From Ardenticatenia bacterium (GTDB lineage Bacteria; Chloroflexota; Anaerolineae; 4572-78; NAK82): a stretch of DNA of 43,922 nt. Below the pieces are notes generated by a model. It was not told the origin of the DNA. It saw nothing but the letters and a program-made list of their open reading frames with translations, and searched no databases. The position numbers were made by a program, and so were the translations under genes. Position 1 is the stretch's first letter, and every line of letters begins with the position of its first letter. Of the stretch, positions 13,780 to 33,096 are shown one piece after another. The DNA lies in assembly GCA_003130875.1 (NCBI GenBank), contig QEXY01000127.1:1-43922 (forward strand), given 5' to 3'.

Positions 13780-16700
13780 TCAATATTCGTCGTCTTCAAG
13801 GGCAGTTTCCTCCCCGATATCTTCCAGATCAGCGCTCGCATCGACCTCAGCCGGCACCCCAGCACGTTCTTCTAGAGCAAGACCAAGGCCGACAGACGCA
13901 AGCTGTGGCTTCGCCCGCTCTGCAGCACGGGCTGCTTCCTTTTGCTTGCGCACTATGTAGCCAGTGCCGGCCGGGATCAGCTTGCCGATGATGACGTTTT
14001 CTTTCAGCCCATACAGATCGTCTCGCTTGCCCTCGATCGCTGCTTGCGCTAACACGTTGATGGTATGCTGGAACGAAGCAGCAGCCAGGAAGCTTTCGGT
14101 ATTGAGTGCTGCCTTGGTGATACCCAGCAGCACAGGCCGACCAGTTGCCGGACGCTTGCCCTCGGCAATAAGCTGATCATTGATCTTCTGGAACTTGAGG
14201 CGATCCACCAGCTCACCCGGCAAATAGTCACTGTCACCGGTCGAGGTGACGCGCACGCGATTGGTCATCTGGCGGATGATCAGCTCAATGTGCTTATCAT
14301 GGATCGAGACACCTTGGGAACGATATACCTTTTGAATTTCTTCCAGCAGGTATGCCTGAGCGGCTTCACGTCCCAAAATGCGCAGGATGCGGTTGGGATC
14401 GAGCGAGCCATCGGTCAACTGTTGGCCTGTTTTGACCATTTCGCCAGGTGTGACGCGTAGTCGCGCTGCCGAGGCGACTTCGTATTCACGCTCGTCACGA
14501 TAGGTCCAGTGGATGGTGATCTTGTGCCCATCCCGCTCCACAATACCACCGTGCTCCGCCAGGAGCTCGCGGTCGCCACGCTTGGCGAGACGGGTGTGGG
14601 CCGGCACCTCCTCACCATCTTCCACCAGGATAGCCCAGTTGCCCGGCACCTCGTACACGTCGTGACGCACCTCTTCCTGGACGACGCGCAGCAATCGAGC
14701 GCCATCCTCTTTCACAACGAGTTCCACCCGACCGTCGATATCTGAGATGATCGCTTCGCCCTTGGGCACCCGCGCCTCGAACAATTCCTGCACACGCGGC
14801 AACCCGTGGGTGATGTCCTCCACATTAGCGACGCCACCAGTATGGAATGTGCGCAATGTCAACTGCGTACCAGGCTCGCCGATGGACTGCGCCGCGATGA
14901 TGCCGACTGCCTCACCCAGCTTCACCAGACCACCGCGCGCCAGATCGCGGCCATAACACATCACGCAGATACCGTGCTCCAGCTCACACGTCATCGGAGA
15001 GCGTACATAGACGCGTTCCACACCCGCATCCACGATCGCCTGTACCTGCTCCTCTTCGATCATCTCCCCACGGTTCACCAGGATTTCGCCGGTCTTGGGA
15101 TGCACGATGCGCTCTGCTGCGATGCGTCCGATGATGCGCTCTTCGAACGACTCGCCGACCGCCTTGGATCGGTCGGCATCGATCCAGAACCCGGCTTGCG
15201 TTCCGCAGTCGATGTCATTGATGATCAGTTCCTGTGCCACATCCACCAAGCGTCGCGTAAGATAACCGGCGTCCGCTGTGCGCAGCGCTGTGTCGGCCAG
15301 ACCTTTGCGTGCACCGTGAGTGGAGATGAAGTACTCCAGCGCCGTCAGACCCTCGCGGAAGTTCGAGCGGATGGGCAACGGGAAGATACGCCCTGCCGGG
15401 TCGGCCATCAGACCGCGCATACCGGCCAGCTGACGGATAGGCTGGAATCCGCCCTTGGTGGCGCCCGAATCTGCCATCAGGCGCAACGGACTCTGCGCGT
15501 CGATGGACTGGCGCACCGCCTCCGTGACCTGGTCGGTCGCCTGGGTCCATAGCTCGACCGTCTTGACGTATTGCTCCTCTTCCGTGATCAACCCACGTCG
15601 GAATTGCTGTTCCACCTGGGCCACTTGCTGTTCCACCTGCTCCAGGATTTGATGTTTCACCTTGGGCACGGTGATGTCCGAGACGGCGATGCTCGTTCCG
15701 GACTTGGTGGCATAGCGGAATCCGACCGCTTTGATCTGATCCACCAGTCGGGCCGTCTCCTCAGGCCCCAGGAGCTGGTAACAACGCCCTACCAGGTCCT
15801 GCAGCTCACCCTTGTCGAGCACCTTGTTCACATAGCGGAGACGCTCAGGCAGGATGCTATTGAAAATGGCACGTCCCACTGTCGTATCAATTAGCTCAGG
15901 CCGTCCGCCATCGCCTGAGGTTACCATGACCTTGATCTTGGCGTGCAGGTCTACCTTGCCTAACGAATAGGCCAGGGCAACCTCATCCAGGCTGGCGAAG
16001 ACCTTTCCCTCACCCGGCTTGCCGTCTTCGGCCATGGTCATGTAATAGACACCCAGCACCATATCCTTGGTGGGGCCGACGACCGGTTTGCCGTTGGCAG
16101 GCAACAGCAAGTTCTTGGTGGAGAGCATCAACTCGCGGGCCTCTTCCACTGCTTTCTGAGACAGGGGGATGTGCACCGCCATCTGGTCACCATCGAAGTC
16201 TGCGTTGAAAGCAGCACAGACCAGCGGATGGATCTGGATCGCATTGCCCTCCACCAATACAGATTCAAACGCCTGGATGCCCAGGCGGTGCAGTGTGGGC
16301 GCCCGGTTCAGGAGTATAGGACGGGTTTTGATAACCTCTTCCAAGACCTCCCATACCTCAGGGCGCTGTTGCTCGATAACACGCTTGGCCCCTTTCACGT
16401 TGTTGGCGTAGTTGTATTCGACCAACTTCTGGATCACAAATGGTTTGAAGAGCTCCAAAGCCATGCTCTTGGGCAACCCACATTGGTGCAGCTCGAGCTC
16501 AGGACCGATCACAATGACGGAGCGACCAGAGTAGTCCACGCGCTTACCCAGTAGATTGCGGCGGAAGCGACCTTGCTTACCCTTGAGCATATCCGAGAGG
16601 GACTTCAGCTGGCGTCGGCCACGCGCCGAGATCGCCTTGCCACGCCGGCTGTTGTCGATCAGCGAGTCGACCGCTTCTTGCAGCATACGCTTCTCGTTGC

Positions 16701-18096
16701 GCACGATCACGTCCGGCGCACCCAACTCCAGCAAGCGCTTGAGACGGTTGTTGCGGTTGATCACCCGGCGGTAGAGATCGTTGAGGTCGCTCGTCGCTAA
16801 GCGTCCTCCGTCCAGCTGCACCATCGGACGCAGGTCCGGCGGGATAACCGGCAACACAGTCAGAATCATCCATTCCGGTCGGTTACCGCTGCGGCGCAAC
16901 GACTCGACGACGCGCAGCCGCTTAACCGCCTTTTTGCGGATCTGCTTAGAGCGGCTGCTGCGAATTTGAGAGCGCAGTTCGCGCGCGAGCTTATCCAGGT
17001 CCAGGTTGACACAAATTTCGCGCAATGCCTCAGCGCCCATGCCGGCCTGGAAGATGTGTCCCCATCGGTCGGACAATTCACGATATTGGCTCTCGTTGAG
17101 GAACTGCATCTGCTGGATGCTCATGAGCTCGGCACGTTCTTCTTCCAGGCGTGTGATCAGCGTCTCAATCTCGCGCTCTACTTCGTTGCTCAGACGCTCG
17201 ACCTCTTGTTCGTGAGCAAAGCGCAGACGGTCGATCTCGGCCTGGATGCGCTCGCGTTCGCGCAGCAGGTCCTCTTCAGCAGCTGCCTTGATAGCATTCA
17301 GTCGCGCTTCCACCATTTCGTTCAAGCGGGTAAGATGATCGCGCGTGACCACTTCACCTGCCGAGACCAGGACCTCGGGCGCATGCGGATTGTGCCCATC
17401 GGTGGGAAACTCGAGCACCACCTCCATCGTTCTGCCGATCATAGACTCGAGTTGGCGCTGCACCTCTTGGGCACTCTGCATCACTTGCTCGATCTCACGC
17501 GCTTGGCGCTCTTCGATCTCCTGCTGATAAGCCAGCTCGCGTTCTCGCAGCTGGTCGACTTGCTGATCCAGAGTAGCCCGTAATGCGTCGACCTGTTCCT
17601 GTCGCGCACGCTCCAGCCGTGCGCGTTCCCGATTTAGCTCATCGTCCAGACGCTTCAGTGCTTTGGCACGTGCCTGTTCATCCACATGGGTGATGATGTA
17701 TTGGGCGAAGTACAGGACGCGGTCCAGGTTGCGACGCGAGATGTCGAGCAACAACCCTAAGTATGAGGGCACGCGGCGCGTGTACCAGATGTGTGCCACC
17801 GGTGCCGCCAGTTCAATATGGCCCATACGCTCACGGCGCACCGAAGAACGAGTCACCAAGACGCCACACTTCTCGCATGTGATCCCACGATAGCGGATCT
17901 GCTTGTACTTGCCACAGTAACACTGGTAGTCCTTGGTCGGCCCAAAGATCACTTCACAGAAAAGGCCGTCCTTTTCAGGGCGCAAACGGCGATAGTTGAT
18001 CGTCTCCGGCTTGGTAACTTCGCCGTACGACCAGCTGCGAATCTGCTCTGGTGACGCTAAGCTGATGCGCAGAGCGCGAAAGTCCTTTACCTCCAC
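13780..18096 (-). CDS. rpoC: DNA-directed RNA polymerase subunit beta'
   Basis: A 1438-residue beta' subunit. The zinc site C59-x-C61...C74-x2-C77 is intact, as is the active-centre NADFDGD motif with the three Mg-binding aspartates (633, 635, 637). The second zinc cysteines appear in DCGTQAG and [11 protein letters not shown], and the [20 protein letters not shown] bridge-helix/trigger-loop entry is present. Between about residues 138 and 345 is a long insertion made largely of heptad-rich coiled coil (Arg/Glu/Gln-rich) around a small beta segment. It lies after the N-terminal zinc finger and before the clamp region. The longer frame (ATG 18132) is rejected in favour of GTG 18096, which has GGGAGG 6 bases upstream and begins [11 protein letters not shown], a typical beta' start. 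rpoB is not upstream. Confidence 0.97.
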
Positions 18097-18279
18097 GGCT
18101 GTCCTCCCAAACAGATGAAAAAAAATCCTCACTCAACTTACCGATCAAGTCCAGACGCACCGTCGCGAGGCATGACAAAATGGCGCTCCTCTTCTGGGCG
18201 CCTTTGAACACGATTGTCAAATCTGCGTAGATGACTTGTGATCTCGCCTTGAATTCGGCGTATGTAGCACAATACATTC

Positions 18280-18308
18280 ATTATAATACAAAATGCAGAT
18301 TTTGTCAA
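18280..18308 (-). promoter_or_regulatory. Consensus sigma70 promoter of rpoC
   Basis: On the minus strand TTGACA (18303-18308) and TATAAT (18280-18285) are separated by exactly 17 bp, a perfect match to the consensus. It implies an rpoC leader of about 175 nt. The leader contains a GGCGC...GCGCC stem (about 18182-18202) followed by ATTTTGT, a possible attenuator. The promoter shows that rpoC is transcribed on its own and not from an rpoB-led operon. A 90-bp MITE begins 12 bp upstream of the -35 box. Confidence 0.85.
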
Positions 18309-18320
18309 AGAGAGGGTGTT

Positions 18321-18410
18321 GAGGGTGTTGAAAAACTCTTTAGTTACTCGCTTTATTGGCCCATTTTCCTATGAAAATCTGAGCGGTCAAGGGACTTTTT
18401 CAATACCCTC
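18321..18410. repeat. 90-bp MITE, copy 1
   Basis: The element has 15-bp terminal inverted repeats (GAGGGTGTTGAAAAA and its near complement, one mismatch) and an inner ATTTTC-CTAT-GAAAAT palindrome. Over 90 bp it is almost identical to copy 2 at 32802-32891. It has no coding capacity and the ends look like insertion-sequence termini, so it is a miniature inverted-repeat element. The first nine bases are duplicated just outside (18312-18320). No clear target duplication is seen. Confidence 0.85.
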
Positions 18411-30905: not shown

Positions 30906-32471
30906 TTATTCGGTGGGCAGGCCCAACATCTCCCGATATTGCTTCTTCTGCTGCTCGCGGCCCAGGCGGTCGGTGATGGCATTCCACTGCTTGGCCACCT
31001 CGTCCAGCGCGGTCTGCGGGTCGACCTCGCCGGCGACGGCACGGGCCAGCTGAGTGTCGAGCGCGTCGAAGTACTCCGCAGCGCCGGTGATGCGCAGGTC
31101 CACCACCGCGTTGGGATGGTTGATGATATCGCGCACGGCGTTGAGGTACTCACTCGCCTCCTGCTCGGTCATGCCGATCTTCAGCCACGGCTCCAAGTTG
31201 TTCAGGTCGCTGAAGAAGTGCGGGTTGACGCCCGAGCCAGGATAGGTTACGAGCAGCTGGCTCATGTTCTGATTGCCCATGAAGGCGGCGAAATCGAAGG
31301 CGCACTCAGGGTTCTTGGTCGTCTTGGTAACCGACTGCACCCAACCGCCGAAGGCCAGGAAGGGCGCCTGGTTGAGGTTGCCTGTCACCTTGGTGGCATC
31401 GACCCACTCACCGCGACGGCTATCCCAGTATTTCTCCGTGCCGGGTTCGAGTGCAGAACCCCACTTACCCACCACGACGGAGGAGTTCACATCGGCAGCC
31501 AACGGCCCCACATCGCCCCAGTCAATTGCCAACACCAGCTTGCCGGCCGGGAAGTTGCCGCGGATGTCGCCCACGTCCCAGTTGATCACGTCGGGCGGTC
31601 CCACCTTGGCGAGTGACACGTATAGCTTCAGCCCTTCGACGAAGCCGGGGTTGTTGATGCGCGGCTCCATGGTATCCGGGTCGAAGAAGTAAGCCGGATC
31701 ATCCGGTGCCTTGGCGAAGGCGGCGGCCACACCCAGGTAGGTCCAGTAGGACTGCGCCTTGCGCTTGAAGGCGGTGCCGGCGCCCCAGATGACCTGCCCA
31801 TCGATCTCCTTACCGTTGAAGAACTCGGCAACATCGTAGTATTGCTTCCAGGTGTTGGGCGGAGCGGGCAGATCGTAACCGTACTTAGCCTTGAACTCGG
31901 CCTGCCACTTGGGGTCAGTCAGCAGGTCACGGCGATAGTACATCATGTGGGCGTCGCCGTCATAGGGCAGCCCATAGACCTTGCCACCCCAAGAGAGGAT
32001 GCGGTCGCGGTAAGTGGGGATCAAATAGTCATAGCCGACCTGATCCTGCACCTTCTGGGGCACCTCGAGGACGTAGCCCGGCCCCATAATATCACCGGCC
32101 CAATCGGACGCGTAGATGATGATGTCAAACGGGCTGGCGCCGGAGATGAAGCCGGTGCGAATCTTCTCGAACAGGTCACCGAAGGGGAATTCCTGCAACT
32201 CGACGGTGCCACCTGTCTTTTCACCCCATAGCTGCCAGAAGTTCTGCACCGGGCTGGCGATCTGTGGGCCGACCTGGGTGCCGACTACCAGATTGACACC
32301 CTTGCAGTCGATCTCGCCGATGCCGTTGGGGAACAGATTGTTGGGGTCGGCCAGCTTCGTTTGCGCATCGGGTGGGACGGGACGTTGTGCCAACGCCTCG
32401 GGCGCCGCCAAGCCAGCCAACATCGAAAGGATTGCAAGTAGACCCAGGACATGTGAAAGCTTCACTTTCAT
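30906..32471 (-). CDS. ABC transporter extracellular solute-binding protein (sugar type)
   Basis: A 521-residue family-1 solute-binding protein. A signal peptide (residues 1-28) ends in ALA before QRPV, with no lipobox cysteine; it must be held some other way or remain soluble outside. The fold is the two-lobed type (NLVVGTQVGPQIASPV, FEKIRTGFISGASPFDIIIYASDWAGDI, GLPYDGDAHMMYYRRDLL). It is somewhat longer than typical (about 420-450). ATG 32471 follows GGAGG at 7 bases; a TTG two codons earlier is rejected. It heads an operon with two permeases, a kinase and an oxidoreductase. No ATPase gene is linked, so a shared MsmX-like ATPase elsewhere is inferred. Confidence 0.9.
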   Translation of the reverse strand: MKVKLSHVLGLLAILSMLAGLAAPEALAQRPVPPDAQTKLADPNNLFPNGIGEIDCKGVNLVVGTQVGPQIASPVQNFWQLWGEKTGGTVELQEFPFGDLFEKIRTGFISGASPFDIIIYASDWAGDIMGPGYVLEVPQKVQDQVGYDYLIPTYRDRILSWGGKVYGLPYDGDAHMMYYRRDLLTDPKWQAEFKAKYGYDLPAPPNTWKQYYDVAEFFNGKEIDGQVIWGAGTAFKRKAQSYWTYLGVAAAFAKAPDDPAYFFDPDTMEPRINNPGFVEGLKLYVSLAKVGPPDVINWDVGDIRGNFPAGKLVLAIDWGDVGPLAADVNSSVVVGKWGSALEPGTEKYWDSRRGEWVDATKVTGNLNQAPFLAFGGWVQSVTKTTKNPECAFDFAAFMGNQNMSQLLVTYPGSGVNPHFFSDLNNLEPWLKIGMTEQEASEYLNAVRDIINHPNAVVDLRITGAAEYFDALDTQLARAVAGEVDPQTALDEVAKQWNAITDRLGREQQKKQYREMLGLPTE

Positions 32472-32754
32472 TGTCAAACCTCCTCTGTGAGTGTCAGTTG
32501 ACTCATCTCAGCTGGATCGCTTCGACTGAATGTCCTGCAAATGTATCTCGGGGAAAGATCATACAGGTGACCGCGCCACACCTGCCGTCCGCCCATGGTG
32601 AGTAATCCCCAACCCCATGCAGCGGATTTCCCAAGTCCATAGATGCGCGGCATTTACGCTTTTCGCCCCTTTGTCTCACCTCCTTCCTTATGCAAATATG
32701 ATGGCTACGTGGCCGACGAGACGCCCCAGATAGAAAAGGGCCACTGCTTAAACT
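32472..32754 (-). other. Long 5' leader of the solute-binding protein mRNA
   Basis: If the promoter at 32761-32789 is real, the transcript has a leader of about 280 nt. It contains a strong Shine-Dalgarno-like stretch (GGAAGGAGGTGAG on the minus strand, around 32678-32690) with no ATG at a suitable distance. No known riboswitch was recognised. An open minus frame crosses the leader (32503-32772) but lacks a suitable start. Confidence 0.4.
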
Positions 32755-32760
32755 ACTTAA

Positions 32761-32789
32761 ATTATAGCACAAACTGGCTCATGGGGCAA
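32761..32789 (-). promoter_or_regulatory. Promoter of the carbohydrate operon
   Basis: On the minus strand TTGCCC (32784-32789) and TATAAT (32761-32766) are separated by 17 bp, with TGC directly before the -10 (extended -10). MITE copy 2 begins 12 bp upstream of the -35, the same spacing as at the rpoC promoter. Confidence 0.75.
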
Positions 32790-32801
32790 GTACACGCGAT
32801 T

Positions 32802-32891
32802 GAGAGTGTTGAAAAACTCTTTAGTTACCCGCTTTATTGGCCCATTTTCCTATGAAAATCTGAGCGGTCAAGGGACTTTTTCAACACCCTC
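32802..32891. repeat. 90-bp MITE, copy 2, with target duplication
   Basis: It is nearly identical to copy 1 and has the same orientation. Terminal inverted repeats are GAGAGTGTTGAAAAA and TTTTTCAACACCCTC. The hexamer CGCGAT lies on both sides (32795-32800 and 32892-32897), which suggests a target duplication made on insertion. Confidence 0.85.
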
Positions 32892-32900
32892 CGCGATAAT

Positions 32901-32990
32901 GGAGATGTTGAAAAATCCTTAAATTACTCTCTTCATCATCTCATTTCCCTGCTAAACTCTGAATAGCTCCGGGACTTTTCGAACACCTCC
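32901..32990. repeat. 90-bp MITE, copy 3 (diverged)
   Basis: Starting 10 bp after copy 2, this stretch has the same length of 90 bp and matching ends (GGAGATGTTGAAAA ... TTTTCGAACACCTCC). It retains blocks such as TTACTC and GGGACTTTT at the same positions. The middle has diverged. It is an older member of the same family lying beside the newer one. Confidence 0.7.
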
Positions 32991-33096
32991 AAACGAGGGC
33001 GAGCACATCTCTATAGAGCGAGTGTATTCCTTTCCCTGGCACTCCAGACTAGGCCGCAACGCGGCACAAGCCAACAACGTCTATGTGCGTATGACC

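Follow-up and report, generated by a model that had tools for sequence, protein, structure and literature searches.

A family of 90-bp MITEs in this genome lies at a fixed distance upstream of unrelated promoters, and the best explanation overall is that the transposase directs insertion to promoters, probably by tethering to the RNA polymerase holoenzyme (probability about 0.85). Steering of the insertion itself is close to certain; the tethering step, the hypothetical part of this explanation, stands at roughly even odds. The window, i.e. the whole 43,922-nucleotide stretch of DNA that was analysed, corresponds to a single contig (C85) in a 3.49-Mb draft assembly of 195 contigs. Two MITE copies lie in it, together with the following features, read from the sequence where no other basis is given.

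13780..18132, minus strand: rpoC (RNA polymerase beta' subunit; NCBIfam TIGR02386, 1733 bits), downstream of the promoter beside copy 1
18280..18285, minus strand: -10 box TATAAT of the rpoC promoter; the orthologous place in the same-genus genome G001 reads TATATT
18303..18308, minus strand: -35 box TTGACA of the rpoC promoter; TTGACA is conserved in G001
18312..18320, plus strand: partial left terminal repeat, 9 bp extra (GAGGGTGTT), abutting copy 1
18321..18410, plus strand: MITE copy 1, 90 bp, with TIRs GAGGGTGTTGAAAAA / TTTTTCAATACCCTC
30906..32477, minus strand: putative sugar ABC transporter substrate-binding protein (weak NCBIfam match, E 7e-5)
32761..32766, minus strand: -10 box TATAAT of the putative sugar-binding gene promoter, conserved in G001 and G002
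32784..32789, minus strand: -35 box TTGCCC of the putative sugar-binding gene promoter
32795..32800, no strand: left TSD of copy 2, CGCGAT, followed by one extra T
32802..32891, plus strand: MITE copy 2, 90 bp
32892..32897, no strand: right TSD of copy 2, CGCGAT (6 bp)
32899..32992, plus strand: degenerate older MITE-like copy, 65% identical, directly beside copy 2

The first-pass annotation had described two near-identical MITEs in the same orientation, each at the same distance from a promoter, and its measurements proved exact. Both copies are 90 bp long and differ by 3 mismatches (97% identity); in both, the -10 box (ATTATA on the plus strand) lies 41 bp from the element start, the -35 box lies 12 bp from the element, and the spacer between the boxes is 17 bp. 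As to the genes served by these promoters, the naming of rpoC is firm, and that of the sugar-binding protein, which comes from the weak match listed above, is putative. Inspection of the flanks of copy 1 revealed no recognisable TSD.

Comparison with a relative lacking the element, which the same annotation had proposed, was informative: G001 has a conserved rpoC promoter (TTGACA, TATATT) and no element there. The -10 box of the sugar-binding promoter is likewise present in G001 without the element. In G002, of the same genus, the orthologous sugar-binding -10 box has another element end 40 bp away (L179, ∼2380–2430), which resembles the 3' end of the likely parent IS described below. The degenerate copy beside copy 2 lies ∼46 bp from the same box, as calculated from the coordinates after subtracting copy 2 and one TSD, and is consistent with an earlier insertion at this promoter. 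Judging from copy 2, the degenerate copy and the element end in G002, insertion at the sugar-binding promoter seems to have occurred three or more times within the genus.

In the 3.49-Mb draft genome the element core has 80 matches at no more than 3 mismatches. Pattern searches combined with retrieval of regions from the draft, the contigs of which are broken at repeats, gathered 81 unique copies with their flanks. The element is 90 bp long, has no coding capacity, and is bounded by 15-bp terminal inverted repeats (GAGGGTGTTGAAAAA and TTTTTCAACACCCTC) that pair with each other in the predicted fold (z -3.6). An exact TSD of 5–9 bp, with a mode of 7, was present in 49 of the 66 copies for which both flanks were available; the copies are therefore independent insertions, and they went into promoters that were already there. 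No convincing correlation was seen among the MITE copies between promoter distance and TSD length. Pairing the ends that lack a TSD, as a means of detecting recombination between copies, yielded one pair. At two places (C39:44 / C52:3348 and C143:98 / C150:4250) one and the same target flank was seen with a MITE and again with an IS end, which we read as strain mixture or an assembly-graph artefact.

To locate promoters, each flank was scored, starting at the element end and moving away from it, with a fixed set of textbook sigma70 frequencies and a threshold of at least 8 bits, all promoters thus being predicted ones. The main sample consisted of the 60 copies flanked on each side by 220 bp or more, the better side being taken. 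A promoter with its -35 box starting 1–17 bp from one end was found in 46 of these copies (77%), while null windows gave 4.4%; the main register alone accounted for 34 of the 60 (57%; null, 2.3%; MWU P 3e-24). At random window points a promoter scoring 8 bits or more lay within 1–17 bp on either side in 1.6% of cases, which rules out chance, as had been suspected from the two copies in the window; the fixed distance seen at those two sites thus held genome-wide. The main peak places the -35 box at 12–14 bp and the -10 box at 35–37 bp from the element end. There is also a second, broader register (-35 at 2–8 bp, -10 at 25–31 bp) in which the -35 box overlaps or adjoins the duplicated target bases. 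Examples of copies in this register, ∼7 bp nearer the promoter, are L008, L009, L030, L064 and L097.

The signal is confined to the immediate neighbourhood of the element. Among left flanks, 46 of 70 had a promoter scoring 8 bits or more whose -35 box began at 1–20 bp, and later 20-bp windows out to 120 bp had 1–4 of 70; for right flanks the count was 18 of 68 at 1–20 bp and 1–4 in later windows. When the left-arm promoters were binned by distance, 35 fell in the 11–15 bp bin and 0–4 in any bin beyond 20 bp. It was the left MITE end that faced the promoter in 31 cases and the right end in 9 (P 7e-4). About a quarter of the copies had no promoter above the threshold, several or many of these showing weak boxes at the main position. 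Promoter-like sequences were seen on both sides of L005, L006, L031, L074, L077, L078, L096, L032 and L062. Such two-sided copies possibly mark divergent promoters; the left promoter of L062 is spurious, being produced by an IS end next to it, and at least one weaker call, the left one of L005, may be due to chance.

Several observations bear on whether the predicted promoters are genuine. The flank alignment contains an extended -10 motif (T.TGnTATAAT), which is absent from the scoring matrix. The strongest motif at 13 bp is TTGAC, and 22 of its 25 occurrences at 11–16 bp are followed by a -10 box scoring 4.3 bits or more; further out, this is so for 5 of 21. Whole promoters are therefore targeted and not the word TTGAC, recognition of which by itself is ruled out by the same comparison. 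In addition, the promoter arm was more often the one with the longer ORF pointing outward (71% versus 43%, P 0.002).

The likely source of the transposase was found at contig ends, where solitary copies of the terminal repeat run into a larger IS with an ORF that starts with a DUF772 domain. In all, 22 IS ends were found in which the first 15 bp are identical to the MITE and are followed by the DUF772 transposase ORF; this candidate parent IS is known from its ends, its full length being unassembled in the draft. Since the terminal repeats are shared, the MITE is probably moved in trans by this IS of the same genome. The N-terminal transposase fragment matches DUF772 with an E value of 4e-20, and the nearest NCBIfam models are those of the IS1182 and IS5 families. 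The best IS1182 model, NF033551, gave 82 and 93 bits on fragments, its cut-off of 270 being meant for the whole protein, and IS5 models match too. No match of the N-terminal fragment to any Mutator model was obtained by profile comparison. A search of the genome itself for PF01609 returned nothing because the interior of the IS is unassembled.

The IS shows the same preference as the MITE: at the corresponding position, 12 of 21 IS flanks had a promoter scoring 8 bits or more, and very few control windows did. The 22nd end, L172, was set aside because its promoter match is an adjacent MITE. Four IS copies could be paired by eye through their TSDs (L160/L164, L165/L171, L175/L168 and L157/L166); in every pair one flank, and only one, carries a promoter. 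The IS insertions also duplicate 5–9 bp of target, and more in one case.

The association extends to other species. MITE cousins with 70–78% identity occur in two genomes of the same genus, and in 7 of their 9 delimited loci a promoter lies at 11–15/34–38 bp (-35/-10), compared with 2 of 85 control windows. Two genomes belonging to other families of the same class each carry a related IS with a promoter at this position: in G610 the IS (L191), the transposase of which is 53% identical, has it at 13/36 bp, and in G040 the IS L132 has it at 15/38 bp. The G040 relative bears the C-terminal domains DDE_Tnp_1/DDE_Tnp_1_6. The IS end L129, also of G040, has no promoter at its end. Within the genome under study, an older, 44%-identical IS (L208) shows the same spacing, with the -35 box at ∼13 bp counting four terminal bases; it adjoins a putative ndk gene. 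In Firmicutes, three distant relatives of the IS (44–46% over the N-terminal domain) had no obvious end promoter when one copy of each was inspected by eye. A named-genome scan with the N-terminal transposase fragment found distant relatives only, and in the more distant relatives within the phylum TIR-bounded ends were not delimited.

Taken with the genome-wide copies, the TSDs and the parent IS, the cousins in other species support one of the alternatives offered for the two window copies, in which the transposase is guided to a set position ahead of promoters. In the mechanism that would account for this, the non-autonomous MITE is mobilised by an IS with a DUF772/DDE (IS1182/IS5-like) transposase. 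Insertion leaves one element end ∼12 bp ahead of the -35 box, at roughly -47/-48 relative to the predicted start, in unrelated promoters of sigma70/sigmaA type, and both boxes stay intact. The transposase would contact the holoenzyme, through sigma region 4 or the alpha-CTD, or alternatively the geometry of promoter-bound DNA, and strand transfer would then fall just upstream of the polymerase footprint. Known promoter geometry places an insertion at this distance at the upstream edge of that footprint. Contact with the holoenzyme is the most natural form of the mechanism because the target is a complete bipartite promoter and the insertion lies at this upstream edge. The benefit for the element might be a safe haven, in which coding DNA is avoided and the host promoter is kept alive.

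The same trace would be left if the transposase read the promoter DNA directly, recognising TTGAC and an AT-rich -10 box, or a supercoil-driven melting or bend, with no part played by RNA polymerase. TTGAC is, after all, the strongest motif at 13 bp, some DDE transposases do choose their targets by structure, and IS1272, of the IS1182 family, replaces inverted repeats (PMC5678879). On the other hand, what lies to one side of the insertion is a bipartite motif in which 16–18 bp separate the boxes and the -10 is extended, just as sigma recognises, and TTGAC alone, even in the same upstream DNA, is rarely accompanied by a -10 box, unlike TTGAC near elements. We regard direct reading as possible but rather unlikely.

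An explanation of another kind would have the element insert at random, with only the copies just upstream of promoters being retained, either as harmless or because the terminal T-tract of the element acts as a UP-like element or insulator. The AT-rich terminal 15 bp are common to the MITE and its likely parent IS, and both might thereby affect promoters in the same manner; insertion of ISs upstream of genes is, moreover, a widespread occurrence (PMC9208149). The positions, however, are concentrated within a few bp, as the histogram of the left arm makes plain; convergent or distal intergenic DNA would be equally harmless; and a bias of orientation such as that of the MITE also speaks against retention. 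Furthermore, a promoter accompanies the youngest copies (76% of those with 0–1 mismatch from the consensus) as often as older ones (71–75%), the two most diverged copies both having one, so selective retention, and with it the suggestion that retained copies are activators or insulators, is not needed. It is a very improbable source of the pattern, though a secondary, putative regulatory effect of the element on host promoters may exist. It had also been suggested that the promoter region moves with the element, as the identical spacing at the two window sites would allow. Spacer and flank sequences outside the boxes are all different, TSDs stand between element and promoter, and G001 has the rpoC promoter without the element; the empty site and the TSDs refute this idea, leaving it a negligible chance. 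Transposase-directed insertion at promoters is therefore the reading we favour.

Promoter homing of a comparable kind has been described for TnGBS, ISLre2 and part of the ISKra4 group, in which Mutator-like transposases insert 13–17 bp upstream of sigmaA promoters (Guerillot et al. 2014, PMC3942029). Their orientation is set by the asymmetry of the inverted repeats, and contact with the RNA polymerase initiation complex was proposed by the same authors (PMC3942029). The present element resembles this group (p-MULT 3/4) in its fixed distance upstream of sigmaA-type promoters (-35 at 12–14 bp) and its orientation bias (31:9). It differs in that the transposase has DUF772 and an IS1182/IS5-type DDE domain and is not Mutator-like, which places the element outside that group; its TIRs are GAG.GTGTTGAAAAA, the gap to the -35 box is slightly shorter (mostly 11–13 bp) with a second, nearer register present, and the main carrier is a 90-bp MITE. 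The N-terminal DUF772 domain, along with the C-terminal DDE domains of the G040 relative, is shared with the IS1182 family (IS1272 and relatives) and IS5-type transposases. IS1272 itself targets and replaces inverted repeats and makes no TSDs (PMC5678879), whereas the targets here are sigma70 promoters instead of palindromes, and TSDs of 5–9 bp are present. No report of promoter targeting by the IS1182 family was found in the open-access literature searched.

Like the Correia/NEMIS MITEs, which are short, non-coding, TIR-bounded, multi-copy and intergenic, often lying near genes (review PMC10969869), the element described here is short, non-coding, TIR-bounded, multi-copy and intergenic; Correia elements, however, bring their own promoters, whereas this one adjoins a host promoter at a fixed distance. 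In yeast, the integrase of Ty3 contacts TFIIIB/TFIIIC (cited in PMC3942029). The likeness is one of working, integration being tied to the transcription initiation apparatus, and no homology is claimed, Ty3 being a eukaryotic retrotransposon linked to Pol III.

Promoter homing thus appears to be new for a transposase group unrelated to the Mutator-like one, the only group for which it was known before in the open-access literature searched. The chances are evenly balanced that a DUF772, IS1182/IS5-like lineage has independently evolved recognition of the polymerase-promoter complex, by which it inserts itself and its MITEs immediately ahead of -35 boxes in several families of one class. That homing to bacterial promoters arose in a second, unrelated DDE group suggests that this complex is a recurrent safe haven. 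The MITE and IS insertions could serve as natural promoter markers where no transcriptome is at hand, and if the transposase does contact polymerase, it could be put to use in placing DNA at active promoters.

Two minor observations were made. A duplicated terminus of 8–9 bp (GAGGGTGT(T)) lies outside the element end in two copies, L034 (C37:11457) and the window copy, at 18312–18320. The first 787 positions of the window hold, on the plus strand, the 3' portion of a 23S rRNA gene together with a 5S rRNA gene.
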